From IMG/VR virus record IMGVR_UViG_3300025083_000274, positions 1 to 20,859 of that record: 20,859 nt of DNA. One strand, written 5' to 3'. Numbering within the stretch: position 1 is the stretch's first letter; every line of letters starts with the position of its first letter. The position numbers and the translations under genes were made by a program. Origin of the DNA: a virus. Positions 4,631 to 19,926 of this stretch are shown one piece after another. The notes under the pieces are model-generated. The model ran no database searches. It saw nothing but the letters and a program-made list of their open reading frames with translations, and was not told the origin of the DNA.

Positions 4631-5694
4631 TGGGAAGAGTATTAGTTAAGTCTGCTCTTCCCGGTAAGGTGTTAGTCAAAAGTAATTATGCTTTCGATGC
4701 TTTTGGTAACCCAGTGTTATTATCGACTCCTTCTACAAAAGAAGGTGCACCTGTAAGAGGAGAAAGGTTGGCTGGTGTTTTAGGCGGAGCAGCAGGTGCT
4801 GGTTTGGCTCTTACTCAACCAGTAAATTCTTTGTCCCAGTTAATCAACAACATAAGATATGGTATGTTTGAAGGTGCTAGAGACGCTCGTGGTTTAAGAA
4901 GAGGGTTGTCAGGTCGCAGAGAAAAAATAAGAGCCAACAGAGCAGCAGACCTTGCCAATCAATATGCCGCTTTGAGAGCACAAGAACCTCTTGACCAAAG
5001 AAGACAAAGAGGTTTATTTGACAGATTGACTGGTGGTAATTTTATGACTGCTGGTCAACAAGAACAAGCATTGTATGAGGCGGATGTGCAAAGAAGACTT
5101 GCCGACGAAAGGGCTGCTAGAAACGCTGCTTTGGGTCAAGAAGTGTTCGATATGGCTGGCGGAATGCTTGGAGAAAGACCAGAAGACTTAACTTTACAAC
5201 AAGGTCAAGGTATTTTGGGCAACATTAGGCAGTTGGGAGTGGCAGGTGCACAACGAGGGAATAGAATAGATGCGGAATCCGTACCGTTACCTAATTTCGC
5301 AAATCAAAATCCCGAACTGATAGCGGATATAGAACGAGAGTTACAAACAAGAAATGTTATGCCTCAAGAAGGGGATGTAAATGTGACGAAGCCTTCTCAA
5401 TCTGAGCGACCTATTGTAAATGTAGCCGGTGAAAAAATAGGTGTAGTGGGAAGTCCAGAGTCGATGGCTAGGCTGAGTAGTATACAGGCTCCTTCTAACA
5501 ACATGGGTGCTGCCGATGCCAATGAACAACCAATACCTCCGAACACTACAGTTAACACCCCTATGGATACATACAACCAGATGAAACCGGAATCTGCTGA
5601 GGAAGAGGAGCAAGAGCCTAGTATGTCTGGTAATGCTACCTCTGACGAAGCCATGTTAGCGGCTTTAAAGACTAAACTGGGGGCCGGGGCTTGA
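4630..5694 (+). CDS. Unknown Ala/Gly/Arg-rich protein, possible internal virion protein
   Basis: 354 residues from ATG 4630, which overlaps the preceding TGA (4628-4630); a GTG at 4627 is the alternative, and the G-rich run AAGGGGG just upstream serves either. The N-terminus holds a direct repeat, GRVLVKSALPGKVLVKS. A small-residue hydrophobic stretch follows (about residues 46-60, LAGVLGGAAGAGLAL), too weak to call a true membrane span. An Arg/Ala/Gln-rich helical region covers about 75-165, and the C-terminal third is acidic and disordered. It ends four bases into the large terminase gene. No family recognised; composition resembles DNA-associated internal head proteins, but this is only a guess. 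Confidence 0.7.
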   Translation: MGRVLVKSALPGKVLVKSNYAFDAFGNPVLLSTPSTKEGAPVRGERLAGVLGGAAGAGLALTQPVNSLSQLINNIRYGMFEGARDARGLRRGLSGRREKIRANRAADLANQYAALRAQEPLDQRRQRGLFDRLTGGNFMTAGQQEQALYEADVQRRLADERAARNAALGQEVFDMAGGMLGERPEDLTLQQGQGILGNIRQLGVAGAQRGNRIDAESVPLPNFANQNPELIADIERELQTRNVMPQEGDVNVTKPSQSERPIVNVAGEKIGVVGSPESMARLSSIQAPSNNMGAADANEQPIPPNTTVNTPMDTYNQMKPESAEEEEQEPSMSGNATSDEAMLAALKTKLGAGA

Positions 5695-7172
5695 GTGATG
5701 TCAACAACCTCATCCGAGACATGGACATAGAGATGTCCAAAAAATCATTTAAGTATTTCTTTACTGAGATTTTAGGCTTTGATTTTTCAAACCATCATCG
5801 AGATTGGTTAGCGGGTCTAAGTGAAAGTAGAAGATACTGCGTCAAAGCAAGCCGTGACCATGGTAAATCAGTATTTTTTATGTCTTATGCACTTTGGTTG
5901 GCTGCTTTTAACCCTAATACTCACATCATGGTATTCAGTCACAGCCTTGAGCAGACACTTGAACACATGCGATTCATCCGTAACAACATCGAAAGCGCTG
6001 ATATTTTGAAAGAATTAAAGCCAACAGGTAAGCCTTGGGCTAAGTCTTACTTTGAATTCACTAATGGTAGCCGTATCATGGCTAAGTCGGTTGGTGGTGC
6101 TACTCGTGGTTTCCACCCTGATGTCGTAGTATGTGACGATATTTTGTGGGGTACTACTAGTTCTGAATTACAAAGAGCAGCAGACTGGTTCTATACTGTT
6201 CTACTCCCGGTTCTGCACCACACAGGTAGGCTGATGATGGTCGGTACACCGTTTAGTTACAACGACCTGTATGCTGAATTAGAGGACAAACCAGCGTTTA
6301 GAGTAGAAACTTATCCAGCCATTTTACCAAATGGTGACCCGCTTTGGCCCGGTAGATGGCCGCTAGACGCACTAAAGGTAAGAGAAGAGTCAATGCCAGC
6401 CATCAAGTTTGCTCGTGAGTATCTTTGTGAGCCTATTCACGACATGTCGAGTATGTTCCCAATGACTTTGTTAGAAAAAGCAAGGGATAAAAACCTAATT
6501 CTGATTGACAAAGCAGAACAAGAGTTTGATGAAAACGGCGACCCATCTGGAGTATTTGGTCAACACTTTATTGGCTGGGACCCGGCTATTGCATCAGATG
6601 CTAATGCCGATTATACTGCCATGTCTGTTCTAAGAATGTTACCGGATAGTGACGAAAAGCAACTAATTCACATCGTGAATGAGAAAGGCTTGGGCAGTAG
6701 CGCACAGAAAAGAAAGATAATCATGCTCAACAGTCGATTTAGGCCAGACCTCATCGAACTTGAAGGTAACAACTTCCAGAGGATGTTTGAGGCGGAACTC
6801 AAAGAGATGCGTGACGACATTCCTATCAAGACATTTATGACCACTCGGCAAAAGAAAGAAAGTATGTTTATGTCTTTACTCATGGCTTTCGAGCAGGGTA
6901 AAATAAAAACACCTTGGGGTGACGAAAGAAGTAAAGAGTTTACTCGTAATCTTGAAACCCAACTCAGTAGATTTGGTATGCAAAAGAACGGTAGACTAGA
7001 GTCTGTAGGCACTCACGATGACTTGGCTATGAGTCTGGCTTTGGCTAACTGGGCTACTAAAGAGTTCAAAGGTACTATGGTTATGCTTGATGACTACCTC
7101 GACGGATTCAACGATTGGTTCGGTGATGTTTCACAAAGAAATGTAGCAGGTGCGTCTTGGTTCACGATATAA
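5691..7172 (+). CDS. terL: Terminase large subunit (packaging ATPase and nuclease)
   Basis: 493 residues, normal length for the family. It powers DNA translocation into the prohead and cuts the concatemer. Walker A variant is ASRDHGKS at residues 53-60. Walker B is VVVCDD at 145-150, preceded by the GATRGFHPD segment. A coupling-motif-like VGTPFS follows near residue 183. The RNase H-like nuclease has its three acidic clusters: GWDPA near residue 296, LIELEGNNF near 355, and THDDLAMSLA near 441. All catalytic motifs are present, so it should be active. The start is probably TTG 5691, overlapping the previous TGA (TTGA) with GGGGG 8 bases upstream; ATG 5721 is the next candidate and loses only non-catalytic residues. 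Confidence 0.96.
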   Translation: MSDVNNLIRDMDIEMSKKSFKYFFTEILGFDFSNHHRDWLAGLSESRRYCVKASRDHGKSVFFMSYALWLAAFNPNTHIMVFSHSLEQTLEHMRFIRNNIESADILKELKPTGKPWAKSYFEFTNGSRIMAKSVGGATRGFHPDVVVCDDILWGTTSSELQRAADWFYTVLLPVLHHTGRLMMVGTPFSYNDLYAELEDKPAFRVETYPAILPNGDPLWPGRWPLDALKVREESMPAIKFAREYLCEPIHDMSSMFPMTLLEKARDKNLILIDKAEQEFDENGDPSGVFGQHFIGWDPAIASDANADYTAMSVLRMLPDSDEKQLIHIVNEKGLGSSAQKRKIIMLNSRFRPDLIELEGNNFQRMFEAELKEMRDDIPIKTFMTTRQKKESMFMSLLMAFEQGKIKTPWGDERSKEFTRNLETQLSRFGMQKNGRLESVGTHDDLAMSLALANWATKEFKGTMVMLDDYLDGFNDWFGDVSQRNVAGASWFTI

Positions 7173-7191
7173 TTAAATGACACCAAAAGTT

Positions 7192-7197: not shown

Positions 7198-7201
7198 TAT
7201 T

Positions 7202-8509
7202 ATGTGGCCGAGTCTAAATGTAACAAATAGTGATTATGTTGTAGATATGGGTCACGCTATTCTTAACGATATAGCAATTAACCTCATGGCACATCCAAGA
7301 GTAGATGAAAGAGTAGCCAAATCAATTGCCTCTCAGACTGTAATATTTGAAGAAGAAAAATTACCTGAGCCACAGTATGCGCCTTTTGCACCTACTGGTG
7401 ACGGTTGGTTTGAAGATAGAATTGGCAAAAGTGCTAACGAAATCATCAAAGATTTGCGAAAAGCAAGAAGAGTCATGAAGGACAGTAAGGATGAGATTGA
7501 CAATATCATATCCAGTGTCAGGACTCTCAAAAGTGCGGAAGTAGATGCAACCTTAGCCATGATATCTTGGGGTAAACCTCATTACGATACTATGAGAAAA
7601 ATGGGATTAGCCGACAAAGACTTACGCTCGCTTAGATTATTTGGTAAATCCAGACAATCTAGTCTACTTCGTGCTTGTAATTTATGGGAAAGTGCAGAAG
7701 ATGCACTCGCCAAGTTAGACGAGTTTGAAGATGTCTGGGGCGAAGAAGAAAAAATGGCTTGGGTTAACGCTATGGAAACTAAACAAGACGCTCGAAAGAT
7801 GTGGAAAAGTTCATTACATCAAATCGACAACCTTTCTAAAGAACAGCAGAAATGGATGAGACTCGCTAAGGAAGAAGTAAGTAACCACGGCTCAATGTCT
7901 GCTAGAGCAATTACTGAAAACCTTATAGAAAAAGGCGTACCAAGGCTTAATTCTAACAGGCTGTCTAAACTTCTCAATATGTATGGTGAGGAAATAAACA
8001 TAGTCAAGGCTCACCGTAAAGGTGAATACATGTGCATAGACCGAGACGGTCTTGTTATCAAAGACCCTTGGTCTTACGCTGCTGGTTTCTTTGATTCTAA
8101 CGGCTATGTAAACATATCAGACCGTGGTGAACCCAAGGTTGGTTTGGTTACTAAAGGTAAAACAGGTAGAATGCATTGTGAACAGTTGTACAAAGGCATA
8201 GGATTTGGAACTTTACAACTTGACCAAAAAGTATACCAAGACTCTGAGCAATCTCAACACCGAGTTACATTTTTGAAATCAGAAGATGTTGCTCAGTTTT
8301 TACAAAATATCTATCCTAACTTGAGAATAAAGGGAGACTTGGCTAAGGCTATGATAACTTATGTCAACTCTGATAACAAAGACACAAAGGGTAAAGTCAA
8401 GAAGTTTCTACAGTATACTAATGCGGAAGGTACTGCCAAGGGCGACAAGTTACTAATGAAGTGGGATGTAGACCGTGATACAGTAGTTAATTGGTTGGAG
8501 GAATTTTAA
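7202..8509 (+). CDS. Protein with C-terminal LAGLIDADG-like domain, catalytic Asp replaced
   Basis: 435 residues. The N-terminal half is helical and charged and not recognised. A winged-helix-like stretch lies at about residues 222-280 (SARAITENLIEKG... then SNRLSKLLNMYG). From about 285 the sequence fits a LAGLIDADG homing-endonuclease domain: AAGFFDSNGYVNI at 293-305, a G-x-G-F-G turn, a beta hairpin, and YPNLRIKGDLAKA near 371-381. In I-CreI the motif is LAGFVDGDG with catalytic D20; here the equivalent position is N300, so DNA cleavage is doubtful while DNA binding may remain. The gene sits between intact terL and portal genes with a coupled TAATG end, which suggests a fixed packaging-related role and not a free-standing mobile gene. 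A standalone, possibly decaying, homing endonuclease is the alternative. Confidence 0.75.
   Translation: MWPSLNVTNSDYVVDMGHAILNDIAINLMAHPRVDERVAKSIASQTVIFEEEKLPEPQYAPFAPTGDGWFEDRIGKSANEIIKDLRKARRVMKDSKDEIDNIISSVRTLKSAEVDATLAMISWGKPHYDTMRKMGLADKDLRSLRLFGKSRQSSLLRACNLWESAEDALAKLDEFEDVWGEEEKMAWVNAMETKQDARKMWKSSLHQIDNLSKEQQKWMRLAKEEVSNHGSMSARAITENLIEKGVPRLNSNRLSKLLNMYGEEINIVKAHRKGEYMCIDRDGLVIKDPWSYAAGFFDSNGYVNISDRGEPKVGLVTKGKTGRMHCEQLYKGIGFGTLQLDQKVYQDSEQSQHRVTFLKSEDVAQFLQNIYPNLRIKGDLAKAMITYVNSDNKDTKGKVKKFLQYTNAEGTAKGDKLLMKWDVDRDTVVNWLEEF
8497..8501 (+). promoter_or_regulatory. Ribosome binding site GGAGG deciding portal start at 8509
   Basis: GGAGG ends seven bases before ATG 8509. It lies inside the extension that would begin at TTG 8491, so the ATG is the real start. 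The site is embedded in the last codons of the upstream gene. Confidence 0.85.
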
Positions 8510-10257
8510 TGGCAGAAAAGGGCAGAATAGGTAAACTCATAGAATCAATCGGCAATCCGTTCCGAAGAAGAAGGACACCAGAGCCACAGATGCCGCTTTG
8601 GACTACAGGTATACAAGAACCTGTGCTAGTACAAGGTATCACCATACCTGCATTATACTCAGTTGCTAATGAAAATCTTATTCTTAGAACCGTTCTTTCT
8701 ACACTTCAACAAGAAATATTCCGTCGTGGTTACTACTGGGAAAAGAAATTCCAGAAGAAATGTACTTCTTGTGATGCTGAGTTTCAACATGATATTGACG
8801 AATGTAAAGAGTGCGGCGATACAAACTTAGCAGAGCCTAACCCTGACCAATTAGTATATCCTCGTTGGTTAATTGAGCAAAGAAACTCTATGGAACAGAC
8901 CTTTATGGATGTACTTAGGGAAGTAGAATATGATTTGAATATTACAGACGATGCTTTCTTGATTCTTATCAAAGAGTATTATATGGACCCAGAGACAAAC
9001 GAGTTAGTGTTTTACAGAATTAAAGAAATAGTTAGAGGTGACCCTATCTTTATGCGTATTATTGCTGACAAGCGTGGTGTAAGAGGAGGTCGATTCAGAG
9101 TTTGCCCTATTCATCGTAATGAAGTTAAGTCTTACTCGGAAGACAACAAGAGTTGCCCTACATGTGGTACAGAAATGCTTGATGTACACCATGTCAACAC
9201 TGCCGGAAGCGGTAAAACCCAATATTATTTGGAAGGCGAGGTAATACATGTTAGTAAATATCAACCTTCCAAACTATACGGTAGAAGCCCAGTGTCTACT
9301 CTTTGGCGACAAGCCATGACTTTGACAGCGATGGATAATTACATGTACACTGCTTATTCAAAGCGTAGAATACCAAGAGGTATATTGAGCGTTACCACTG
9401 ATAATCTTGAGTCTATGAAGTCGTTTTTCAAGGCTACCGACGAAAAGTTAGAGCGTGACCCGCATTATATACCTAAGATTGGTATTGAATCTGGTAGTGG
9501 TAGAGGCGGTATCAACTGGGTCAAACTAATGGACAGTCTTGAAGAGATGCAATATATACCTGCAAGAGACGAGATGCGACAAAGAATCGCTGCTTTCTAT
9601 GGCGTATCTAATGTATTTATGATGGACACTGGTAAATCTGGTGGACTAAACAACGAAGGTATGCAGATATTAGTCACTAATAGAGCAGTAGAGTTTGGTC
9701 ACAAAGTATACACCGACCACTTGTTCCCAAGACTAATGGAAGAACTGGATGTCACAGATTGGAAACTAACATTGTATCCAAACGAAGAAGAAGATGAAGT
9801 TACTCGACTACGCCGTGATGAGATGGAAGTCAATATTGCACAAAGAATGATGATGATGGGTTACAAACCTACACTATCCGAAGATGCAAATCGTGATATT
9901 CGCTTTATCTATAAGCAACCTGACCCGGTTGACCCTGCTCAACAGCCACCTCCACAGGGTATGCCTATGGGAGGCATGCAGATGGGTGGCGGTATGGGTA
10001 CACCGGGTGCACTTCCGGGCCGTAACATTAGTCCTCAAGGCGCTGCTCAAATGGCTAGACAAGCGCAAATGGGTATGTCTCAGCCCGGTGGAGAAGGTAT
10101 GGGACTTAGAAATAGAGGCCCAGCAAGTCCTCAAAATAGAACCAGTATGGGCGCTGGTGCCCCGATGTCAAGCGTTCAACAAAGAGGCCCCCAACCCACT
10201 GGGGTTCAACAGGCTAGTCAAAATATATTAGATGCTAGAAACCCAAGAGGGGCTTAG
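8509..10257 (+). CDS. Portal protein with two zinc-ribbon inserts
   Basis: 582 residues. The portal dodecamer forms the DNA channel at one capsid vertex and docks the terminase. The protein follows terL with one gene between; its core has portal-like features: an opening WTTGIQEPV...PALYSVANENLILR segment, ISVSKYQPSKLYGRSPV-type region (visible as VIHVSKYQPSKLYGRSPVST), and a helical stem region ending with AAFYGVSNVFMMDT. Two four-ligand metal sites interrupt the N-terminal half: C85/C88/C99/C102 and C199/H202/C216/C219. Such ribbons are not part of classical portals. Residues from about 470 to the end form a Met/Gly/Pro/Gln-rich low-complexity tail. The start overlaps the preceding stop (TAATG). 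Confidence 0.92.
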   Translation: MAEKGRIGKLIESIGNPFRRRRTPEPQMPLWTTGIQEPVLVQGITIPALYSVANENLILRTVLSTLQQEIFRRGYYWEKKFQKKCTSCDAEFQHDIDECKECGDTNLAEPNPDQLVYPRWLIEQRNSMEQTFMDVLREVEYDLNITDDAFLILIKEYYMDPETNELVFYRIKEIVRGDPIFMRIIADKRGVRGGRFRVCPIHRNEVKSYSEDNKSCPTCGTEMLDVHHVNTAGSGKTQYYLEGEVIHVSKYQPSKLYGRSPVSTLWRQAMTLTAMDNYMYTAYSKRRIPRGILSVTTDNLESMKSFFKATDEKLERDPHYIPKIGIESGSGRGGINWVKLMDSLEEMQYIPARDEMRQRIAAFYGVSNVFMMDTGKSGGLNNEGMQILVTNRAVEFGHKVYTDHLFPRLMEELDVTDWKLTLYPNEEEDEVTRLRRDEMEVNIAQRMMMMGYKPTLSEDANRDIRFIYKQPDPVDPAQQPPPQGMPMGGMQMGGGMGTPGALPGRNISPQGAAQMARQAQMGMSQPGGEGMGLRNRGPASPQNRTSMGAGAPMSSVQQRGPQPTGVQQASQNILDARNPRGA

Positions 10258-10292
10258 GAAGTTTAAAGTCAAGTGGTGTATTGGAGATGAGC

Positions 10293-10634
10293 ATGGACCT
10301 TAAGAAATTGGACCCGATGGCTAGAAAAATGAGAAGTCATGTTGACGCATTTTACAAAGCACTAGAGCAACAAGACGGTATCTCGGCAAGAAGTCACATT
10401 ACAGAAGTTATCAAGTACGCAGATTACTTAAACAAGGATATCGAGACTACAATCTCAAAGTCTGATACAGTGCAAGTCACTGGTATCAATGACATCTATG
10501 TCGGCGGAGTACCTGTTCTTAAGTCAGGCTCTGCTCAAAATGTTCACACAGCGCAGAACGATGTGTTGCCGGGCATGATTAGAACCACAAGAGCAGGACC
10601 GACGCACCGAAGATTGTCAAACCGTACAGTTTGA
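10293..10634 (+). CDS. Small unknown protein downstream of portal
   Basis: 113 residues from ATG 10293. GGAG at 10283-10286 is six bases from this ATG but abuts ATG 10287, so 10293 is preferred. The N-terminal 55 residues look like a helical hairpin (MARKMRSHVDAFYKALEQQ... ARSHITEVIKYADYL). The rest is beta/loop with a GVPVLKSGSAQN segment and a basic Arg-rich C-terminus. No family recognised. Location in a run of three small genes between the portal and a giant gene suggests a head or connector accessory, which is inference. Confidence 0.7.
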   Translation: MDLKKLDPMARKMRSHVDAFYKALEQQDGISARSHITEVIKYADYLNKDIETTISKSDTVQVTGINDIYVGGVPVLKSGSAQNVHTAQNDVLPGMIRTTRAGPTHRRLSNRTV

Positions 10635-10640
10635 GGTGAT
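10633..10640 (+). promoter_or_regulatory. Extended ribosome binding site GAGGTGAT
   Basis: Eight bases complementary to the conserved 16S rRNA 3' end, three bases before ATG 10644. It spans the stop codon of the preceding gene, implying coupled translation. Confidence 0.8.
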
Positions 10641-10643
10641 TAA

Positions 10644-11012
10644 ATGAGCGAAGAGAGGGGAAATGTCGCTGAAAAGTTGATGGGTGCGCTCATCACTAAA
10701 ATGGAAAATATGGATGCAGGTCTTCAATTGTTGAAAGCCGAAAACGCCGAACTCAAAAAAGCACTATTAAACCCAGCAGTATTACTCAGAAAGGCTGGTT
10801 TTGTATCTGCTAGAAACAATATGCCAGAAGATGTCATGCCTGATGTATTTAGAGGCGACTCTGATGATGTATTGCTGAAGGAAGACGGTAATCCAATAGA
10901 GATACCAAAGACCAATCAAGACTTTTACAAGACAGACTGGAGTGAAATTCACGCACTGGCTGACCAAGCAAAGAGCAGCGGTGCAATAGGAAACGAAATA
11001 GGAATGGAATAA
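10644..11012 (+). CDS. Small coiled-coil protein with scaffold-like C-terminal motif
   Basis: 122 residues. The N-terminus is a clear heptad-type helix, about residues 5-45 (KLMGALITKMENMDAGLQLL and onward). The middle is acidic. Residues 98-106 read DWSEIHALA, preceded by a TNQD element. Almost the same arrangement (TQD-x4-DWSEVHNLA) ends the protease-scaffold protein at 17355. A coiled coil followed by a short conserved C-terminal helix is typical of scaffolding proteins that bind coat or portal, so this may be a second scaffold or a competitor for the same site. That role is inferred from the shared motif only. The next gene starts two bases after its stop. Confidence 0.75.
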   Translation: MSEERGNVAEKLMGALITKMENMDAGLQLLKAENAELKKALLNPAVLLRKAGFVSARNNMPEDVMPDVFRGDSDDVLLKEDGNPIEIPKTNQDFYKTDWSEIHALADQAKSSGAIGNEIGME

Positions 11013-11013
11013 T

Positions 11014-11409
11014 ATGAAGCCAAGATTTGAACAAGCAAGTAAAGAAGTGTATGGCCTGCTAAAAGCAGCGCAGAACTTAGAAAATCGCATCGCTAAGAAA
11101 GAAGGTAGTATGCCAGATTATACAAGTCAGCCAGAAGGGACTACTGTAGGATATGCTCGATTTGAAGCACAGCCTTCTGGTGTACCTAATGCTTATTATA
11201 ACACCAACAATGTATTGCTTAACGATGTACAAGATGTCGCTAATAAAGGTGCAATCTCAGAGAACAGCGATGTACTAACAAGAGAGTCACCTTACTATCC
11301 TACAGCGTTTAGCACAACAGGTGCACTTGAGAACTTCAAAGGTGGTGACGGTCCAACCTTGTCAGAACTAAAGAAGTCTATTGACCGATTAGCCAGCCGT
11401 CTAAATTAA
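11014..11409 (+). CDS. Small unknown protein with terminal helices
   Basis: 131 residues, ATG 11014 two bases after the previous stop, with GGAATGGA upstream. An N-terminal amphipathic helix (FEQASKEVYGLLKAAQNLEN, about residues 4-23) and a C-terminal one (LSELKKSIDRLASRL, about 115-130) flank a polar, Tyr/Asn/Pro-rich middle. The C-terminal helix resembles the first helix of the scaffold region at 17892 (L-x-E-L-x3-(I/L)-D-R-L-x2-R-L). No family recognised. It is probably a virion or assembly protein by context. Confidence 0.7.
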   Translation: MKPRFEQASKEVYGLLKAAQNLENRIAKKEGSMPDYTSQPEGTTVGYARFEAQPSGVPNAYYNTNNVLLNDVQDVANKGAISENSDVLTRESPYYPTAFSTTGALENFKGGDGPTLSELKKSIDRLASRLN

Positions 11410-11425: not shown

Positions 11426-14400
11426 TTGAGAGAAGGGCCATTAGAGACTCTTGATAGAACACGAGGTGTGTTCGTTAAGTCTCTATTAGATGGTATTGGT
11501 AAAGCAGACGCTGGTGCTGAGTTTTATTTTGCAGCCGTTAGCGCTGAGCGAAAGGGTTACGATTTATCAAGTCATGACAAAGGCTTACTGAACATGTTTA
11601 GTTCTGTCATACAGAAACAGGAAGATGAAGATAAGTGGGCTCCTCAAAAGCATACCAATATTAGTGAGCAACAAATGGGATTTGAAATAGATTATACTGC
11701 TGGTATGGAATTAGCCGACAACCCATCTATGAATCCAGACAGAGTTGTTCCGCCTAACGCAGACGATTTAAAATATTCTGGCAGACCCTTCACACTAATT
11801 AATGGCGAGGCTAACGACCCCTATCGAACACGCAATGCTTTGGGTCAAGGTTTCAATCCTTTACACGGTAATTATCACCAAATCTTAGCAGATTTTTATT
11901 TAGCAAACGAGGCTGGTAGCGAGCCTCAAAGTCAAAAAGACGCTAGGAAAGAACTTGCTTGGGAAGAACACGCAGCAAAGAATGACCACAGTTTTTTACA
12001 AACACCTTTGCATCTCGGTGAGTTAAACGAAGATGCCACTAATCATCAACTCTATCTTAATCACTACAAAAGGTGGGAAGAAAGTAATCGAGATATAGTC
12101 GATAAAGTTCGAGCAGATAGAAAAGAACAAGGTTTATCGGAGGCAGAAATTGACCATGAGTTGAAGCAAATTCATATGGAAGATGCCAAAAGAGATTGGC
12201 AACAGAATCTAGGCTTTATGGATTACTTTCTTGGCATGGAATGGTTTAGTCCAGAAGAAAGAGAAAAAGCCTATCGGCACTTGTATGACTATGGAGGGGC
12301 AGATAGCACTAGACTTTTGACTTTTGATAGCAGTCCACAAATACAAGATTTTTTACCCAGACTAAAACGCAATTTCCAACAAAGATTTTCTGGTTTATAC
12401 GACTGGTGGACTAGAGTCCCTAAACACTCTCAGCATCCTTTGGCAATCAAACCAAAGCGTTTGCCAGAAGATACTGAGAATATTCAAAGAGTGCATAATT
12501 GGATAGCAATGCAAGATAGTAGTCTTGGAAAGAAAAGAGACTGGGAAAGAGCAGTGGACCATTATAACAAAATGTATAGAATGTATAATCCAGATGCTGA
12601 TGCTTTTAGTTATAGCCATGTCCCTTATTTCGACGATAAGAGAAACGAAATACATTGGAGAAAACAGTCTATTGGTAAGGGTAACAAACAGAATTACCTT
12701 AGTGAACCTATGTTAAGACATATGCTCAATATTGATAGTGAAGGTAAGTTACTTGAAGACGGGGAGCATCCTGTTTGGGGACCTGCTTGGAAAAAAGCCG
12801 ATTCGCCATTTAGTCAAGAAGAACTTGATGAGATTATGAAAAAGAGGCGAGACGAGTCCATCAAAATGAGGGCGGCAGGTAGGGTCGCTAAAAATCACGG
12901 TGTGATAAATTATGGCACTTATATGGACCCTGACCACTATGATTATCTTGATGACCATGATACACTTGCTACTCACTGGAAAAGACCCTTCCAAGTAGGT
13001 GGTATGGGTAAAAAGGCTAATGAATTATTCAATTTACTACACCATCATACTTTGGCTTACAAACCTGTAGAGACAGAACAATCAGCAGACTCTCAGGCTT
13101 TGAGAGAGCGTTTTGGCGATTACCTACAAGACATTGGTGCAGATGGAGAACAAGTCGGAGAATTTGAGCCTACGACGGAAAGAACCATGATGGGTGACAA
13201 AGAAGTGAGTTTATTCTTTGAAAAGACTGGTAATAGAATAGGTATACAGCACATCGAAGGTGGTGGTAAGAGCATGGATGCTTTCTTTGGACCATTTGGA
13301 CAGGGTGGGTTGAATTTGTTTCCTGATGCCGAGGGCAAAACTACAGCGTTCAGAGGTGACTTTGCCCGACCTAGTTCCTTGATGAACCCACAGAGTGCTG
13401 TTGCTTCTTCAGGAATAAAAGGTGCAGGCGGTCAGAATGCTCACACCGAAAGACACTCTAGTGGAACTGATGGTAAATACAGTAACGAGGTACACAGTGA
13501 TTATCACGCTGCGAGAGAATCAGGTGACGATGATGCTGCCAAAGATGCTCATGACAAACTGCGCGGTGAAACTCCCGACCATCTAAGAATGGTCAATATA
13601 CACCAAGGGACATTCAACAACGACGAAGTTGAACAAAGTGCTGCTTATAGTTACCACACTATAGGCACTATGGTTGGTATGGGTAATAACCCAATGGAGC
13701 CGCTTAGAAGAGTAATCAGTCACAAAAACCCCGGTCTTTTACAAGAAGGAACGGGTTTGCGTTCTACACTTGCTGACCACAATGATTTAGTAAACGACCT
13801 CAGTGCTAAATTTGAAACACTTGGTGAGTTCGACATCGAAGAAGAAAAACAACAAATAGAGGATAGTATAGAAAACTCCAGAAGTCGGATAGAGCGAGAA
13901 CTTGAAAATTTAAATCAAAGAAAAGCACCCACTAACCTAACTGAGGAAGAACTCATTGAATTTAATAGAGTGCTGTCGACTGAAAAAAATTTGCTAATGG
14001 GAGAACTACAAGAGTTACCAAAAGCCAAAGAAAGAATGATTGCTGACTTGGATGACAAACTTAGACAGCACACTATCGGTAACCAAGTTCTCGGTCCAGA
14101 TGGTCAACCAGTAGATATAGGTATGATGACTAATCTTGGTATACCTAGAGAACTAAATCCAGAAGGTCAGGTTTCTAGGAGGCTGTCTGCGTCTCAAAGA
14201 CCGATGGCGGCTGAGGAAGAGTCACAGTATTTTGAAGGTCTGATGGACAGGGCTGGCGAAATAGAAGAGTTGTTAGAATCTGGTAGTCTGACACAAGGTG
14301 AAAGGCTGACTTTACAGGGTGAGTTGAATCAGTTAGATGACCAGATGAAAGAGTGGGAAAGAAGAAATTACAAACTAACACCTAGTGGTAACATTTCGAC

Positions 14401-17323
14401 AAAGCACTTTGGTGGTAAAGGTCATCATAATACTCTACAAAGAAAGTTGGATGCTGATATCAAAGCGATTGCAGATGCAGGTGAGCATCTATACAGGATG
14501 CTTGGGCAAACTCCAGAAGGTAGGGCTCAACTTGCTCAGATATTCAACCCTAATGCTGACCACGAAACAGCGGCTGCTAACATGCGTATGTGGGCAGCAA
14601 TGTCAAATGATTTCTTACAAAAAGCACCCGAAGACAGCCACGACATCATGACACTAGGTAATACGAAGTTTGAAGTCAAAGGTCAATCAAAGCCGACTAC
14701 AGATTTTGCTACGGGTATGAAAACTACAATTTCTAATTTTGGTAATGCAATTAATGCTAAAAATGTATTTAATTATGTCAGTATTTTGGATGGTATTTCA
14801 CAAATAAAAAGCAGCGCTAGGATGCAGACTGACCCTGAGCAAGCACAAGCCATGATTGAACGAGGAGAAATGGATAATCGTCAGTATGAAGATTCCTTCA
14901 TGGACTCACTTGGTTTGGATAAGTCTGATAATAGATTGCGACAAACGGTAAAAGATTATGTCGACAATACTCTACTACCCAGACTCAACGAAAACAAACC
15001 TATGCCTTCTGTTATGACAGGTCGACAATTGTTTAGTCAAATGTATCCTGATATAGACATCGACGCTATGCTCGCAAACATGCTCAATCGTAAACAAGTA
15101 AACAGTCCTGATGTCAAAGACTTTGTTAGAAAGGTAGGGCAGATATACAATACATTGGGTAGAAAGGCAGAAGAGAGAAACCGACAAACTGGTATCGGTT
15201 TTCAACTTGCACATAGTTTAGACGATAGGTTTGAAGAAGGTTTGCATACGAGTCGTTCTAAATTTTCAAGAGATTTGAAGGGTAGAGGTAAAGCAGACGC
15301 AAAAAATTTAGACGACCAGCAAAATGCGATACAGACTCTTAACTCATTGATTACTAATTTTTCAGATGTAGAAGTTCCACAGGAAATCACTCAAACTAAA
15401 TCCGGTCTTGGTCGAGTCAAGGTCGGGCCAAACGGTCACGACACACATACCGTCAAGAGTCTGTATAACTCAGGTGGTTTCAAACATGAGTTCGGAGATG
15501 ATTTTTCACCTAATTTCAATTACTACATAGGCTCTGACGGCACTCCTAAAATTACCATGGTCAATCCTAATGAAGATAATACTCAGGCTTTAGTTCCACT
15601 GACTAGTCACTTTTGGGACAAGATGATTTCAGTAGCGGCACCTGCTTGGCAGAGTTTACTTTACGGCCCTGAGCATCAAGGAGCAAGACAATCATTGGCT
15701 ATAAACGAAAGGAGAGCCCCTCAGTTTACAGTTGACAATCTTGGCCGAACACTCAATCAAGATTCTAGTTCCACGACTAAATCTGATATTGGTCTAGCAG
15801 ACTTAACTAATCCTGATATTATCAGAAAAGACTTGGGCCCAGAAGTTCCTACGCTACAGCCGATGCACCGTATTTTTGAACTAGACGACCTTGAACATCT
15901 GCGTGGTTTTACAGGCGACTGGATAGTTTCTGTCATGCCAGAGGGTGAAAGAGGGTTTGTTAAGAAAGACGATGACGAAGTTACATCTCCTACTTTTGAT
16001 TTATCAGATGAAGACAAAGAGAACTTCAAGAAAGTAACAGATGAAGATTATCACGCAGATGTCATAAAGACAGAAGACGGTTACTATATCTTCGATATCT
16101 TGGAATACGAAGATAAAGAAGTCCACGAAATCACGATTGACGATAGAATCAAAATACTTAGAGGTGCTATGGAAGGTGTAGGTAATGTTCACTTACCAAG
16201 TGCTAGTGACACTCGACTTACTGATGATGCAGGTCTTAAGTTAGCAGTAGATGATTTACAGAAAGACCACGGTTCGGTATTACTCAGAGATGCTAAGTCA
16301 ACATACATGGCTGGTGAACTAAGACATCCTAAGTGGGTCATGCTCAAACCCGGCAAGGATGTAGTGTTAAGAGTATTAGACAGAAGAGGCAACGGGCCTT
16401 ACACATATCGTCTAGGTACTGGTCCGATTACTCAAGCCGAAAAAATAGGCAACCGAGCAGTAGAGTCAGAAGGTGAAACCTATATGGATGTCGGCGTTGC
16501 TTTCAATAGTCCAGAAAAATACAACAAAGGAGACCATGTGAGAGTCAATGCTGCTAATGTAAGTAAGGTGGAATCAGTAGACGAAGAAACTGTTTACACT
16601 TTGACTGGGTCAGAAATAATTGGTGAAGCAGAAGGTGAAGGTCTTGTCAGCAGAGAGACGCTAGGTTTACTTGCCAAGTCATTAGATTCACAATGGCTTT
16701 GTGAAGTTCATAGGGCTAAAAGTGGTATAAGAGTAGTAATGCCACAAGGAGATGTAGTTTACAAAGCCACAGAATCACAGGGTCATTGGTCAGTTCATAG
16801 TCCACTTTCTTCTAACAGTTATTTGGTCAGACTATCTGAAAGTCAAAGAGCGTATTGGAGCCCCATAGCAGGCGCACTGCTCAAGGCTAATCTTGATATT
16901 GCAGAATCAGATAACGAAGATAAAGCAGAAGTTCATGAATCACAAGGTGACGGTAAACCACTTATATCTCCTAAGAAAATAAAAGACTCCGAATGGAAAG
17001 ATAGAGAGAAACAGATGGTAATGGTCAAAGGCTTACAGTTGATAGAGAAACTTTTGAAAAGTGGGGTAGGCGCTGTAGGTCAATCGAGTACAGGTACTAT
17101 GGGTCTAGGTATAGGTTATGCTACACCTATAGAATCGCCTATGGGTCCGACAAACTTACACGACGAGAAGACAATGCCGGACTACGATAACAAAAAACGA
17201 CCCGGAGAAGATTCTTCTATAGAGCCGGAAACGGAAGACCAAGAGGACAAAAAACACTTAGTCATACCTGTATCAGATGGCGTTTTAGAGGTAGATTCAG
17301 ACAAGGCTGTTTTCCATACTTGA
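11426..17323 (+). CDS. Giant 1965-residue protein with C-terminal inactive DNA-ligase-like fold
   Basis: 1965 residues from TTG 11426. Residues 1-1480 match nothing I recognise: His/Trp/Tyr-rich in the first 550, coiled coils at about 801-875 and 941-981, no membrane segment. Residues about 1495-1645 follow the ATP-dependent DNA ligase nucleotidyltransferase domain: motif I region MPEGER at 1504-1509, motif IIIa FDIL at 1556-1559 followed by DDRIKIL, motif IV region HGSVLLR at 1615-1621, motif V region KWVMLKP at 1636-1642. An OB-fold-like segment follows to about 1740. Catalytic Lys of KxDG is Met, motif IV Glu is His, and the first motif V Lys is Met, so ligation is unlikely. The C-terminal 220 residues are acidic and disordered. 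It sits between portal and protease, so it is probably a virion or assembly protein. No frameshift is seen. Confidence 0.8.
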   Translation: MREGPLETLDRTRGVFVKSLLDGIGKADAGAEFYFAAVSAERKGYDLSSHDKGLLNMFSSVIQKQEDEDKWAPQKHTNISEQQMGFEIDYTAGMELADNPSMNPDRVVPPNADDLKYSGRPFTLINGEANDPYRTRNALGQGFNPLHGNYHQILADFYLANEAGSEPQSQKDARKELAWEEHAAKNDHSFLQTPLHLGELNEDATNHQLYLNHYKRWEESNRDIVDKVRADRKEQGLSEAEIDHELKQIHMEDAKRDWQQNLGFMDYFLGMEWFSPEEREKAYRHLYDYGGADSTRLLTFDSSPQIQDFLPRLKRNFQQRFSGLYDWWTRVPKHSQHPLAIKPKRLPEDTENIQRVHNWIAMQDSSLGKKRDWERAVDHYNKMYRMYNPDADAFSYSHVPYFDDKRNEIHWRKQSIGKGNKQNYLSEPMLRHMLNIDSEGKLLEDGEHPVWGPAWKKADSPFSQEELDEIMKKRRDESIKMRAAGRVAKNHGVINYGTYMDPDHYDYLDDHDTLATHWKRPFQVGGMGKKANELFNLLHHHTLAYKPVETEQSADSQALRERFGDYLQDIGADGEQVGEFEPTTERTMMGDKEVSLFFEKTGNRIGIQHIEGGGKSMDAFFGPFGQGGLNLFPDAEGKTTAFRGDFARPSSLMNPQSAVASSGIKGAGGQNAHTERHSSGTDGKYSNEVHSDYHAARESGDDDAAKDAHDKLRGETPDHLRMVNIHQGTFNNDEVEQSAAYSYHTIGTMVGMGNNPMEPLRRVISHKNPGLLQEGTGLRSTLADHNDLVNDLSAKFETLGEFDIEEEKQQIEDSIENSRSRIERELENLNQRKAPTNLTEEELIEFNRVLSTEKNLLMGELQELPKAKERMIADLDDKLRQHTIGNQVLGPDGQPVDIGMMTNLGIPRELNPEGQVSRRLSASQRPMAAEEESQYFEGLMDRAGEIEELLESGSLTQGERLTLQGELNQLDDQMKEWERRNYKLTPSGNISTKHFGGKGHHNTLQRKLDADIKAIADAGEHLYRMLGQTPEGRAQLAQIFNPNADHETAAANMRMWAAMSNDFLQKAPEDSHDIMTLGNTKFEVKGQSKPTTDFATGMKTTISNFGNAINAKNVFNYVSILDGISQIKSSARMQTDPEQAQAMIERGEMDNRQYEDSFMDSLGLDKSDNRLRQTVKDYVDNTLLPRLNENKPMPSVMTGRQLFSQMYPDIDIDAMLANMLNRKQVNSPDVKDFVRKVGQIYNTLGRKAEERNRQTGIGFQLAHSLDDRFEEGLHTSRSKFSRDLKGRGKADAKNLDDQQNAIQTLNSLITNFSDVEVPQEITQTKSGLGRVKVGPNGHDTHTVKSLYNSGGFKHEFGDDFSPNFNYYIGSDGTPKITMVNPNEDNTQALVPLTSHFWDKMISVAAPAWQSLLYGPEHQGARQSLAINERRAPQFTVDNLGRTLNQDSSSTTKSDIGLADLTNPDIIRKDLGPEVPTLQPMHRIFELDDLEHLRGFTGDWIVSVMPEGERGFVKKDDDEVTSPTFDLSDEDKENFKKVTDEDYHADVIKTEDGYYIFDILEYEDKEVHEITIDDRIKILRGAMEGVGNVHLPSASDTRLTDDAGLKLAVDDLQKDHGSVLLRDAKSTYMAGELRHPKWVMLKPGKDVVLRVLDRRGNGPYTYRLGTGPITQAEKIGNRAVESEGETYMDVGVAFNSPEKYNKGDHVRVNAANVSKVESVDEETVYTLTGSEIIGEAEGEGLVSRETLGLLAKSLDSQWLCEVHRAKSGIRVVMPQGDVVYKATESQGHWSVHSPLSSNSYLVRLSESQRAYWSPIAGALLKANLDIAESDNEDKAEVHESQGDGKPLISPKKIKDSEWKDREKQMVMVKGLQLIEKLLKSGVGAVGQSSTGTMGLGIGYATPIESPMGPTNLHDEKTMPDYDNKKRPGEDSSIEPETEDQEDKKHLVIPVSDGVLEVDSDKAVFHT
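15896..16645 (+). other. Degenerate ligase nucleotidyltransferase plus OB-fold region
   Basis: This is the part of the giant gene coding for residues about 1491-1740. The order and spacing of motifs I, IIIa, IV and V, then an OB-like barrel containing YNKGDHVRVNAANV, fit an ATP-dependent ligase core. The residues that bind AMP and do chemistry are substituted (M1504, H1615, M1639), whereas structural residues (G1507, R1509, FDIL, W1637, K1641) remain. Confidence 0.7.
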
Positions 17324-17354: not shown

Positions 17355-18755
17355 ATGGCAGCGATGGCTTCACTGAGAACTTCCCCCGTCAACCACGGTG
17401 GAACTATTAGTATAGTTAAGGCTGACAACGACCTTGTAATCGCTGGATATGCATCTGTTGAGATGGTAGACAAGCAAGGAGATTTGATTACTAGAGGTGC
17501 TTTGAAAAACGCTTTTGGTGACTTTATGAAAGCAGATGGATTTAGAAATGTCCAACTTGCTCACTCAAACATACAAGTTGGGAGCGTTATTCCATCTTAT
17601 ACTGACTCTGATGGCAGAGTTTGGAAATCCGGTGTCGATGACGCTGGTATGTTCGTAGTCATTAAACTACGAGACGACATAGAAAAGGCAAGAGAAGTTG
17701 CCAAAGAGATTCGCAAAGGAGCCCTTAGAGGTTTCAGTATCGGAGGACAAGCATTCAAGAGAATGCGAAAGAGTGACCAACAACACGGTGACTATACAGA
17801 AATCTCCAAACTGGAACTACACGAGGTCACTATTTGTGAGAAAGGTATTAACCCGGAGGCGACATTCCGTATATTGAAGGAGGACACAAACATGAACGAT
17901 GATAATGTATTGAATGAACTGTCAAGCACACTAGATAGACTGAACGGAAGACTCGACGCTATGGAAAAAGGCGAAATGCCAGAAGCAGCAAGAAGAGCAC
18001 TTGAAGAATCTCAAGGTAAAAAGAAAGAAAAAGACGAAGGTGAGAAAGTGGCAGAAGGTGACGATAAAAAAGAAGCAATGTACGGTGCTGAGCACAAAGG
18101 TGAAGGAGACATGGAAAAAGGATATTCTGATGTCATTACTACTGACTATCTAAACTGGATGGAAAACACTCTGAAATCAGCAGGTGTTGACATCACAGGT
18201 GCAAGAAACCACTTCGACAATGTTTCAAAGGCTAACCTAGGAAGCACACCAGAAGCAATCGGTGACGGTGCAGACTACTTCGCTGGACAAGTTAAGGGTC
18301 GAGCACAAGAAGGTGGCTCTCCATCAACTAATGCAATTGGAAAACTCAACAGCGGCGGAAGCGGTGCAGTAGCAAAAGGCTACCTACACCCAGACCTAGT
18401 TACTGCATCTGATTTGGAAGCAGCATACGAAGTTTACAAAGCAGCATCCCTAGAAGAACAATTCAAGGGTAACCTTGGTGCTGTATTCGCTGACAGACTA
18501 AACAAAGAACTTTCATCAGAAGCACAAGCAAGAGAAGCCGCTTCCTTCGATGCAAGAACACCACTTGCTAACATCGAAAAGGCTCTGGCTGACTTGAGTG
18601 GCAGAATTGATAACATCAGTAAGTCGTCTGATTCAGTAGAAGCAGCAACGATTAGAAAACAACTTTCCACTGTCGAAGTACCTTCGACACAGGACTTAGC
18701 AAGCATGGACTGGTCAGAAGTTCACAACCTTGCCGGGAGCGTATTTCATAACTGA
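17355..18755 (+). CDS. Prohead maturation protease fused to scaffold (XkdF/U35-like)
   Basis: 466 residues. Residues 1-165 form a phage serine protease domain: VDKQGDLITRGAL near 37-49, the histidine in VQLAHSNIQVGSVI (H70), and the nucleophile in LRGFSIGG (S128). This matches HK97-type/XkdF head maturation proteases, which cleave scaffold and coat after assembly. Residues 180-466 are helical, Glu/Lys/Ala-rich and scaffold-like, ending in TQD-x4-DWSEVHNLA (452-460) close to the C-terminus. ATG 17355 lacks a good ribosome binding site; ATG 17364 is an alternative. A strong internal site gives a nested scaffold. The gene is directly upstream of the major capsid gene, the classical order. Confidence 0.92.
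   Translation: MAAMASLRTSPVNHGGTISIVKADNDLVIAGYASVEMVDKQGDLITRGALKNAFGDFMKADGFRNVQLAHSNIQVGSVIPSYTDSDGRVWKSGVDDAGMFVVIKLRDDIEKAREVAKEIRKGALRGFSIGGQAFKRMRKSDQQHGDYTEISKLELHEVTICEKGINPEATFRILKEDTNMNDDNVLNELSSTLDRLNGRLDAMEKGEMPEAARRALEESQGKKKEKDEGEKVAEGDDKKEAMYGAEHKGEGDMEKGYSDVITTDYLNWMENTLKSAGVDITGARNHFDNVSKANLGSTPEAIGDGADYFAGQVKGRAQEGGSPSTNAIGKLNSGGSGAVAKGYLHPDLVTASDLEAAYEVYKAASLEEQFKGNLGAVFADRLNKELSSEAQAREAASFDARTPLANIEKALADLSGRIDNISKSSDSVEAATIRKQLSTVEVPSTQDLASMDWSEVHNLAGSVFHN
17877..17884 (+). promoter_or_regulatory. Strong internal ribosome binding site AAGGAGGA
   Basis: A near-perfect site inside the protease-scaffold gene, eight bases before in-frame ATG 17892. It is stronger than anything upstream of the full-length start at 17355. 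Confidence 0.8.
17892..18755 (+). CDS. Nested in-frame scaffold protein (internal start of protease gene)
   Basis: ATG 17892 is codon 180 of the 17355 gene and is preceded by AAGGAGGA at good spacing. Translation from it gives 287 residues lacking the protease domain: helix LSSTLDRLNGRLDAMEKG, a Lys/Glu-rich stretch (about residues 210-250 of the fusion), an Ala-rich helical body and the DWSEVHNLA C-terminus. This mirrors lambda C/Nu3, where an internal start yields scaffold in excess over protease. Alanine codons become predominantly GCA after this start, as in the capsid gene, consistent with high expression. Independent synthesis is inferred, not shown. Confidence 0.72.
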   Translation: MNDDNVLNELSSTLDRLNGRLDAMEKGEMPEAARRALEESQGKKKEKDEGEKVAEGDDKKEAMYGAEHKGEGDMEKGYSDVITTDYLNWMENTLKSAGVDITGARNHFDNVSKANLGSTPEAIGDGADYFAGQVKGRAQEGGSPSTNAIGKLNSGGSGAVAKGYLHPDLVTASDLEAAYEVYKAASLEEQFKGNLGAVFADRLNKELSSEAQAREAASFDARTPLANIEKALADLSGRIDNISKSSDSVEAATIRKQLSTVEVPSTQDLASMDWSEVHNLAGSVFHN

Positions 18756-18792: not shown

Positions 18793-19926
18793 ATGGCAAG
18801 AAATTACATGAGAACAATCAATGACATGGAGCGCTACTACTACGGTGCTGGACAAAGTATGGGATACTCGTACACTGGTTCAGAACTATTGAAGGCTGAT
18901 GCACCATTGCTAAGCACAACAGCAGGAACATACCAAGCAATCTACGGTAGAAAAGTTTGGTCACAACTAAACCAAGAATTCAACGCATTTTCAATTCTAC
19001 CAAAGAAACCATGGGACAGAAGTGGATGGAGAGTAGTTACTGCTAAGCCTTCCAAGACTGTTGGTGGCGGAATTGCAGAGAACGGTACACTACCAGACAC
19101 AACCAAACCTACTTTCCAGAATGTTGCAGCAAAGCCTAAAACCATCGCTCACTCATTCGATATGTCTGAAGTAGCAATTTTCCTAAATGACAAAGACGAC
19201 GGTCTAGGTGACATTCGTTCAGTCTTGAAAGAAGAGATGGGTAAGCACCACGCAGAGCACATCAACGACATGCTAACTGAGGATGTAACAACTGTAGCAG
19301 GTAACGACTTTGAATCACTTGACAGAATTACCACTGGTAACAACTCAATGGCATCTGGTACTCACTACGATGCAGGTGACGAAGACATTTACTCGATTGA
19401 CAGAAGTGCAGCCGGTAACTCTTGGGCATTTGCTGAGGATTCTGCTGACAGCGGTTCTGCTAACAGAACTCTATCACTTGACCACTTAGATGAGATGTTT
19501 AGACTTATCTGGACTCGTGGTGGAAATCCAAAGGTCATGCTAACTGGATATGACACCTTGATGAGAATACAACAACTTCTACAAAGCCAACAAAGGTTCA
19601 TGGAAGAAAAGAGAGTAGTTCCAACATTCAACGGTGTAAAAGGTGTTCCGGGTATGGAAGCAGGTTTCATCGTAGCAACTTACAACGGTGTTCCAATTAT
19701 CCCAACCAAGGAGATGGCAAGCGACGGCATCAGCAGAATTTACATGCTTGATACTGACTACCTATACTTTAGCACTGCAAAGCCAACACAATACTTTGAA
19801 TCTGGTATCGAAACCGGAGACCCATTCGCCATTAACCGCCTCGGTCAAGAGGGACTTTACCGAACAATGGGTGAAGTATGGACAACTTTCTTTGGAGGTC
19901 AAGGTTCTATCCGTGACTTACAGTGA
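18793..19926 (+). CDS. Major capsid protein, HK97-fold type
   Basis: 377 residues, typical length. Assignment rests on position directly after the protease-scaffold gene and on capsid-like sequence: FNAFSILPKKPWDRSGWRVV near residues 62-81, a GGGIAENGTLPD loop region near 94-105 that could form the E-loop, a helix rich in charged residues (SVLKEEMGKHHAEHINDML, spine-helix-like), then VMLTGYDTLMRIQQLLQSQQ and GFIVATYNGVPIIPTKEM in the A-domain region. There is no large N-terminal delta domain, consistent with scaffold encoded separately. An LLKAD sequence at 32-36 could be a maturation site, which is speculative. Codons favour C-ending Asn, Asp, Tyr and Phe, as expected for an abundant protein. 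Confidence 0.92.
   Translation: MARNYMRTINDMERYYYGAGQSMGYSYTGSELLKADAPLLSTTAGTYQAIYGRKVWSQLNQEFNAFSILPKKPWDRSGWRVVTAKPSKTVGGGIAENGTLPDTTKPTFQNVAAKPKTIAHSFDMSEVAIFLNDKDDGLGDIRSVLKEEMGKHHAEHINDMLTEDVTTVAGNDFESLDRITTGNNSMASGTHYDAGDEDIYSIDRSAAGNSWAFAEDSADSGSANRTLSLDHLDEMFRLIWTRGGNPKVMLTGYDTLMRIQQLLQSQQRFMEEKRVVPTFNGVKGVPGMEAGFIVATYNGVPIIPTKEMASDGISRIYMLDTDYLYFSTAKPTQYFESGIETGDPFAINRLGQEGLYRTMGEVWTTFFGGQGSIRDLQ

Follow-up and report, generated by a model that had tools for sequence, protein, structure and literature searches.

Magrovirales, according to ICTV profiles, have PolB, a chaperonin, an HMG-CoA-lyase-like gene, a tailed-virus head module and a genome of ~90-110 kb. A DNA ligase is listed for these viruses in a paper and in two ICTV profiles; the profiles place it among the replication proteins and give morphogenesis and replication genes as predicted to be transcribed in opposite directions. 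For a group A magrovirus contig, a passage of PMC7318539 describes one 678-bp read covering parts of the ligase and prohead protease genes. We found no report of an inactive ligase in these viruses in the open-access literature. Here we describe a window, that is, the whole stretch of 20,859 nucleotides analyzed, in which a DNA-ligase fold occurs toward the C terminus of a giant protein encoded in the head module. This fold is probably a ligase core that is unable to adenylate in the known way and that is under purifying selection for a non-catalytic job.

A giant protein of the head module

All features described below lie on the + strand. The giant ORF (11426..17323, 1965 aa) opens with a TTG start, about where the consensus of its relatives (A5) has a methionine. 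Upstream are the terminase large subunit (5691..7172), the portal protein (8491..10257) and a block of three small syntenic ORFs (10281..11409, comprising 10281-10634, 10644-11012 and 11014-11409), in which no family was recognized. The giant gene is followed, 31 bases downstream, by an HK97-type prohead maturation protease (17355..18755) and then by the major capsid protein (MCP, 18793..19926), which, of the annotated phage records, best matches those of haloarchaeal druskavirids. The head-module setting, which a previous sequence-only reading of this DNA had proposed, is borne out by the relatives: a portal lies upstream of the giant gene in 95 of 96 listed loci (the exception is L101, where it went undetected), the protease lies within 400 nt of it in all 117 listed relatives with room to see adjacency, and the MCP is downstream in all 99 listed loci. 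Among 61 listed loci fetched by their MCP, several of which share records with domain-fetched loci, 57 contain the ligase-like domain; in one such locus, L313, it was not found upstream.

Outside the ligase-like region, the N-terminal 1456 aa gave no family identity, yielding only isolated weak matches and coiled-coil-like proteins. A profile of the N-terminal part matched mostly coiled-coil or long-helix proteins, weakly (E 0.0054-0.93), and a coiled-coil-like stretch, with approximate limits judged by eye, spans aa ~785-980 (13778..14365). The C-terminal module (aa 1739-1965, 16640..17320) is conserved and without known family, and its ESPxGPT...PDxD...RPxED tail is kept even in a clade without the OB fold. 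No family was returned when PHROGs was searched with the giant protein, and tblastn of phage records gave no match. In Pfam, DNA_ligase_A_M (PF01068) was its sole match, with no N-terminal ligase DNA-binding domain detected, nor was such a domain found in the 31 N-terminal parts searched. Promoter, terminator, tandem-repeat and tRNA scans added nothing. A scan of genome contigs gave one weak match, in a Treponema MAG.

The window itself is a 21-kb fragment. A 101-kb relative (G004), of which 41 of 77 listed ORFs were scanned, encodes PolB, Cpn60, HMGL, a portal, a protease and an SU10-type MCP, a gene set that agrees with the ICTV description of Magrovirales. As part of our preferred explanation, the giant protein would belong to magrovirus-like archaeal tailed viruses.

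The ligase fold

Profile searches and the predicted structure confirm that aa 1471-1738 (15836..16639) adopt a DNA-ligase nucleotidyltransferase plus OB fold. The nucleotidyltransferase (ligase adenylation) domain, recognized by PF01068 and in an AlphaFold2 model, is catalytically degenerate and corresponds to aa 1471-1645 (15836..16360), while aa 1646-1738 (16361..16639) form an OB-fold domain in both the predicted model and the fold search, where the sequence-only reading had noted an OB-like segment after the motifs. The sequence-only reading had set the limits of the domain at 15896-16645; the fold stands, and its start has to be moved upstream.

The window's match to PF01068 (24.3 bits, E 2.8e-5 for the fragment) is below the 26.2-bit cut-off, and seven NCBIfam ligase models match with E-values of 8.4e-5 to 0.0052, all far below their own cut-offs. 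Of 76 family members, 74 have a PF01068 match with an E-value no higher than 0.01, and a family-profile search of the PDB ranks DNA ligases first (4eq5, E 1.6e-5). An earlier model of aa 1457-1965 was too poor (mean pLDDT 49.4). The AlphaFold2 model of the ligase-like domain, which has a pLDDT of 88.9, matches Pyrococcus ligase with a Z of 17.3 over 241 residues, and its nucleotidyltransferase domain matches DNA ligase 3 with a Z of 17.2 (165 residues, 2.5 Å). The best viral structure match is BFVD entry A0A516LT18 (28% identity, E 6.4e-21). Profile search and structure prediction, the two checks that the sequence-only reading had proposed for the fold, therefore both returned ligases, and a chance motif match is ruled out by the profile E-values, the 74 of 76 PF01068 matches and the predicted fold. 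Homology is based on profiles and the predicted fold because single-sequence and direct intact-ligase comparisons were insignificant: a single-sequence PDB search gave no match, hhalign against the HGTV-1 ligase gave a probability of 0.25, and the family profile scored ~0 bits against two intact viral ligases. When viral contigs were scanned with the HGTV-1 ligase, four loci were retrieved.

Catalytic motifs and selection

The domain was found in at least 184 ORFs, of which 125 sequences, the window's among them, were kept (minimum 230 aa, identical ones once); with 37 more from MCP-fetched loci (minimum 150 aa), they make up a set of 162 listed domains. These relatives are the matches listed, mostly fetched by sequence patterns inside the ligase domain and hence biased toward conserved copies, and near relatives weigh on the counts because only identical sequences were removed.

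The motifs occur where the sequence-only reading had seen them. Motif I (aa 1504-1509, 15935..15952), placed by alignments, reads MPEGER in place of KxDGxR. Its lysine column contains Met (as in the window), Trp, Tyr, Phe, Leu, Gln or His, and lysine in 0 of 162 listed domains; Met1504, whose conservation had been raised as a question, thus gives way in relatives to other residues but never to lysine. A tree built from 72 representatives (<90% identity; M 27, W 18, L 8, F 7, Y 6, H 4, Q 2) shows at least 13 changes in this column, none to Lys. Since the PF01068 match spans profile positions 104-204 only, that is, after motif I, and the motif I stretch alone scores only 1.6 bits against 4eq5, the lost lysine was placed by motif order, fold and a multiple alignment in which KFDGVR, DGE, EGAMVR and KVK of an intact ligase encoded by a virus of this kind fall onto the degenerate motifs. 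All three agree with the proposed replacement of the lysine by M1504.

Motif III, also defined by alignments, is DVIK replacing DGE (16058..16069), with I, V, F, L, M, A or T at the Glu column in 162 of 162 listed domains; motif IIIa is FDIL (16091..16102). In motif IV (GSVLLRD replacing EGxxxK, 16271..16291), the glutamate had been aligned with H1615. Its loss holds, with no conserved Glu at 1615 (0 of 162 listed) or 1616, but its position is most likely G1616, a column that is Glu in 35 and Asp in 49 of 162 listed domains; the place of the motif IV lysine is taken by Arg in 157, Lys in four and Cys in one. The following S-T-Y-x-x-G-E-x-R segment (16298..16324) resembles the equivalent segment of DNA ligases, its S, Y, G and E being present in all 162 listed domains and R1633 being R in 152 and K in 10. 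In motif V (PKWVMLK, 16328..16348), the first lysine has given way to L, M, V or I in every listed domain (162/162), as had been claimed, and the second position is Arg or Lys in 112 of 162. By contrast with these losses, R1509, R1574, R1579, D1622, S1625, Y1627, G1630, E1631, P1635, K1636 and W1637 are invariant in the 162 listed domains. Moreover, no K-x-[DE]-G was found in the window's giant protein, an intact KxDG being what the sequence-only reading had regarded as evidence against inactivity. With the adenylation lysine, motif III Glu and first motif V Lys absent in 162 of 162 listed domains, the view that the ligase is catalytically dead is strongly supported.

Ligand binding was considered as well. 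Position 1556, presumably the adenine-stacking site, varies (F, I, V, N and others in the 162 listed domains), and the net charge of the nucleotidyltransferase part has a median of -6 (range -21 to 7, same set) and is -19 in the window. Consequently, AMP binding is disfavored and general DNA binding is unsupported.

The ligase-fold region is the best conserved part of the giant protein: in 64 representatives, the mean consensus per 50-residue block is 0.53-0.69 for aa 1451-1750, versus 0.00-0.49 for aa 1-1450 and 0.40-0.56 for aa 1751-1965. The dN/dS ratio is 0.035-0.060 in five usable pairs of seven, with dS above 1 in four of the five; L184-L171 (ratio 1.17) was left out because its segments were unequal in length and compared ungapped, and L018-L088 because dS was saturated. 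A decaying domain is ruled out by these ratios and by conservation above the rest of the protein. In the most divergent clade the OB fold is missing, the domain profile A3 matching only at positions 2-180 in six records, and 206-221 aa follow HPKW in eight loci of this clade; the window has 328 aa after HPKW, and the 102 of the full-length set have at least 315.

Candidate roles and known ligase folds

A dead ligase domain is carried by all 44 records searched. One of them, G033, also encodes a stand-alone ligase with an intact KxDG, so the dead domain is not a replacement enzyme. No other PF01068 match was found in the remaining 43 of 44 records, most of which are fragments, and neither an RNA ligase nor an NAD ligase was found elsewhere in 22 records (0/22 each). 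According to the passage on the 678-bp read, the "ATP-dependent DNA ligase" published for magroviruses has the prohead protease gene as its neighbor. It is therefore probably the giant ORF, in one group A magrovirus contig at any rate, and what has been reported as the DNA ligase of these viruses would probably, at least partly, be no functional enzyme.

What job a dead ligase core could perform is something that we infer. The sequence-only reading had suggested that it binds nicks or ends, that it has an architectural role in capsid assembly or packaging, or that the protein enters together with the DNA. In the explanation we prefer, catalysis would have been lost before the sampled viruses diversified, and the giant protein would be made late, together with portal, protease and capsid. 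Gene order, our only guide to its role and location, suggests a place close to or at the portal vertex, or else within the head, where the former ligase core would be a docking module of a head protein. Its partner would more likely be a protein (portal, protease or capsid) than DNA, a second possibility being docking on a DNA end or phosphate via two arginines, that of motif I, which is invariant, and that of motif IV, which nearly is. That possibility, in which the dead core binds a 5' phosphate or nick through these arginines and either guides the ends of the genome at the portal while it is packaged or ejected or protects them after entry, is a special case of docking. It is consistent with the gene lying between portal and protease and with the basic residues retained in the listed domains (motif I Arg in 162/162, motif IV Arg/Lys in 161/162, second motif V Arg/Lys in 112/162), but the nucleotidyltransferase part is net negative in most relatives, and the most divergent clade lacks the OB fold, which in ligases belongs to the DNA clamp; we consider this reading rather unlikely. 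A wider scenario is only slightly more credible and is put forward tentatively: a ligase was captured by the head module of marine archaeal tailed viruses and lost catalysis, is now the best conserved piece of a giant protein close to the portal that reads genome ends or nicks (or portal partners) in packaging or ejection, and mostly accounts for the replication ligase credited to these viruses. Equally compatible with docking, and another special case of it, is a virion protein injected with the DNA, whose ligase fold would target it or bind host factors. The equivalent interval of haloarchaeal HVTV-1 has large proteins, one with zeta-toxin and ADP-ribosyltransferase domains; however, HVTV-1 gp113 and gp115 gave no significant match to the giant protein, a relation to either was rejected on this basis, and we deem injection improbable.

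The remaining explanations depart further from docking. That the protein works as an ATP-dependent DNA ligase, in line with its published annotation, could be argued from its listing in a paper and two ICTV profiles and from searches in which the PF01068 cut-off was exceeded in 4 of 14, 10 of 22 and 6 of 13 records; among the last six is the genuine stand-alone ligase of G033. It is contradicted by the three catalytic residues absent from all 162 listed domains and has virtually no chance of being correct. Because some relatives have an adjacent lysine (1503 in 45 and 1505 in 8 of 162 listed) and the motif IV column is acidic in 84 of 162, another nucleotide-using activity with a relocated residue retains a slim chance, but these lysines are unconserved and missing from the window, and position 1556 is variable. 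No better placed is a replisome scaffold, a pseudo-ligase tethering replication proteins as in vaccinia A20, whose middle domain is described in PMC11142717 as an inactive ligase that comprises a catalytic and an OB subdomain. In its favor, the 101-kb relative has its own PolB, but the gene is in the head module beside portal and protease, and the two ICTV profiles give opposite predicted directions of transcription for morphogenesis and replication genes.

Should the published gene in most cases encode a dead ligase within a giant head protein, the view of replication in these viruses would change: many of them would depend on another ligase, such as the host's, and archaeal virus head assembly would gain a fixed, testable component. 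Compared with known systems, the domain shares with ATP-dependent DNA ligases (Pyrococcus, Thermococcus; human LIG1, LIG3, LIG4) the nucleotidyltransferase plus OB fold, the motif order, S-x-Y-x-x-G before motif V and the motif V Trp. In contrast to these enzymes, it lacks the adenylation lysine, the motif III Glu and the first motif V Lys, has no detected N-terminal DNA-binding domain and is embedded in a giant head-module protein. The snurportin-1 cap-binding domain, a non-catalytic relative of the capping-enzyme fold that binds the RNA trimethylguanosine cap, is a weak profile match (E 0.044). BFVD A0A516LT18, at 827 aa shorter than the giant protein, is probably a family member, judging by its predicted structure. 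According to PMC11142717, the middle domain of vaccinia/mpox A20 is likewise an inactive viral ligase, made up of a catalytic and an OB subdomain and forming part of a larger protein; compared by description, A20 is a DNA polymerase processivity factor in a virus of eukaryotes, whereas the giant protein is in an archaeal tailed-virus head module. It would thus add a prokaryotic-virus case to the exapted ligase folds, here in a morphogenesis module: while the magrovirus ligase of the literature is listed as a replication protein, the version in the giant protein is catalytically dead and lies in the head module.

The giant head-module protein and its gene neighbourhood

In the virus record, which is 20,859 bases long, the head module runs from the terminase through an HNH-like gene, the portal, three small ORFs and a 1965-aa ORF (11426-17323, plus strand) to the prohead protease and the major capsid protein (MCP). 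The segment that the sequence-only reading had flagged as a catalytically dead DNA-ligase fold (15896-16645) lies within the 1965-aa ORF, which is separated from the protease gene by 31 bases. Three large ORFs upstream of the terminase (1332-5694; 478, 620 and 355 aa) gave no PHROG match with E at or below 0.01. Between terminase and portal is a 439-aa ORF (7190-8509) with an HNH PHROG match (E 1.6e-6), and haloarchaeal HVTV-1 likewise has an HNH gene there. The portal (8491-10257) displays Cys-x-x-Cys pairs at residues 91, 105 and 222 and zinc-ribbon matches below threshold, which suggests a putative metal-binding insertion.

The place of the giant gene is fixed. Across 124 loci examined, the portal lies upstream in 95 of the 96 that offer more than 3 kb on that side, and the MCP lies downstream in all 99 for which more than 3 kb is available there; the protease frame opens less than 400 nt away in 117/117 loci with at least 1.5 kb downstream. 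We therefore infer that the giant protein would play a late role in head assembly. When relatives were instead fetched by their MCP (447 found, 80 kept), the ligase-like domain was present in 57 of the 61 loci whose upstream sequence reached 4.5 kb or more; the other four are locus L313 and three that we take to be HVTV-1, HCTV-5 and HCTV-1, all haloarchaeal. Upstream of its related capsid gene, L313 (1925-7205) has 1175-aa and 598-aa ORFs with neither a ligase-like domain nor a significant Pfam match. One 101-kb relative, G004, encodes PolB, a chaperonin, an HMG-CoA-lyase-like protein, ERCC4 and head genes among the 41 of its 77 listed ORFs that were scanned, a set that fits Magrovirales as described in ICTV profiles. 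It also contains a 5489-aa ORF (L123:373-16839).

A remote but consistent ligase fold

The motifs quoted by the sequence-only reading were found at residues 1504-1509, 1556-1559, 1616-1622 and 1635-1641 of the giant protein. Searched against Pfam, this segment gives DNA_ligase_A_M at E 2.8e-5, with 24.3 bits against a cut-off of 26.2, and the match spans profile positions 104-204 of 204. Seven ligase models of NCBIfam also match, with E values from 8.4e-5 to 0.0052 and scores far under their own cut-offs in every case; PF01068 is matched by 74/76 family members with E no higher than 0.01. In five records a second, weak piece was seen at Pfam positions 12-81, which correspond to the motif I region. 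The motif I stretch by itself scores 1.6 bits against DNA ligase 4eq5. A family profile run against the PDB places DNA ligases on top (4eq5, E 1.6e-5), with weak matches further down that include snurportin-1 (E 0.044). Among viral models, DNA ligases rank next after the top match, a protein of 827 aa with 28% identity (E 6.4e-21).

The AlphaFold2 model of residues 1471-1738, built on 76 sequences, has a mean pLDDT of 88.9 and a pTM of 0.74. Its best 40 Foldseek matches in the PDB are DNA ligases throughout (best E 2.4e-10), with query TM-scores of about 0.43-0.62 and a large rmsd across both domains. VIA-align superposes it on Pyrococcus ligase (Z 17.3, 3.6 Å, 241 residues) and on DNA ligase 3 (Z 17.2, 2.5 Å, 165 residues). 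A single-sequence PDB search found no match, and no significant similarity emerged when two intact viral ligases were compared. The homology to DNA ligases is therefore remote, yet sequence profiles and predicted structure agree on it.

Loss of the catalytic residues under constraint

We aligned 162 non-identical domains, drawn from MCP-fetched loci and from viral-contig scans that reported 27, 146 and 508 relatives (27, 80 and 80 loci kept). The motif I lysine column contains no lysine in any of them, the residues being Met (52), Trp (46), Tyr (23), Phe (17), Leu (14), Gln (6) and His (4). On a tree of 72 representatives sharing <90% identity, this column underwent at least 13 changes, none to lysine. 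Around it, the glycine following the lost lysine is kept in 157/162 and the arginine in 162/162. The motif III glutamate column is occupied by I, V, F, L, M, A or T, and the first lysine column of motif V by L, M, V or I, in every domain. The motif IV glutamate column (1616) holds Asp in 49 and Glu in 35, the remainder being non-acidic (Gly in the window). No K-x-[DE]-G occurs anywhere in the window's giant protein, and among 102 full-length proteins K-x-D-G-x-R turned up in one, well away from the domain at residue 186. The sequence-only observation of a dead ligase fold holds.

The domain is nevertheless maintained. dN/dS is 0.035-0.060 in the five usable pairs out of seven, dS being <1 in only one of them (window versus L005, a relative's locus, ratio 0.060). 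Mean consensus per 50-residue block, in 64 full-length representatives, is 0.53-0.69 over residues 1451-1750, against 0.00-0.49 upstream and 0.40-0.56 downstream, a contrast that may be somewhat overstated, as the patterns used to fetch most relatives lie within the domain itself. The most divergent clade (eight loci) retains the nucleotidyltransferase part and lacks the OB fold; its conserved tail comes directly, with 206-221 aa after HPKW versus 328 in the window.

What the domain might do, and how it compares

We favour a reading in which the domain would serve as a non-catalytic docking module. Lysine sits directly before the lost motif I position in 45/162 domains and directly after it in 8/162, and chemistry relocated to such a flanking residue is conceivable from the alignment. 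Phosphate or a DNA end could be bound through the motif I and motif IV arginines; however, the nucleotidyltransferase part carries a negative net charge in most relatives (median -6), and position 1556, which we take to be the adenine-stacking site, varies among them. The sequence-only interpretation, a dead ligase fold recruited into the head module, largely stands, the end-binding or architectural job that it proposed being a candidate role.

In 44 magrovirus-like records (14 + 22, with 4 repeats, + 12), PF01068 matched within the long ORF every time. It matched elsewhere only in the 102-kb G033, whose stand-alone 379-aa ligase (L322:342-1481; 72 bits) has intact KFDGVR, DGE and EGAMVR. This record shows that the search detects a real ligase, that the dead domain does not substitute for it, and that some of these viruses have one. 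The other 43 gave no second match, but 19 of the 44 are at least 90 kb without a completeness estimate and the rest are fragments, so that a second ligase may have been missed in any of them; RNA-ligase and NAD-ligase families were each absent from the 22 records searched.

The pseudo-ligase is shared across the family, which bears on the description of these viruses. An ATP-dependent DNA ligase is listed in the Apasviridae and Aoguangviridae profiles of ICTV, and a statement in Xu 2023 assigns a DNA ligase to almost all magrovirus vOTUs. Given the 31-base spacing in the window, the published ligase is very probably the giant ORF, at least for the group A contig of PMC7318539, where one 678-bp read is described as covering parts of ligase and prohead protease genes.

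In HVTV-1, which has no PF01068 match, the portal-protease interval, the place taken by the giant protein in the marine viruses, holds an annotated head-assembly protein with a Mu F-like match just below the Pfam cut-off and also gp115 (L043:8623-12564; 1313 aa), which has zeta-toxin and ADP-ribosyltransferase domains. No sequence relation was found between gp113 or gp115 and the giant protein. That an inactive ligase domain can belong to a non-ligase viral protein is illustrated by vaccinia A20, as described in PMC11142717.
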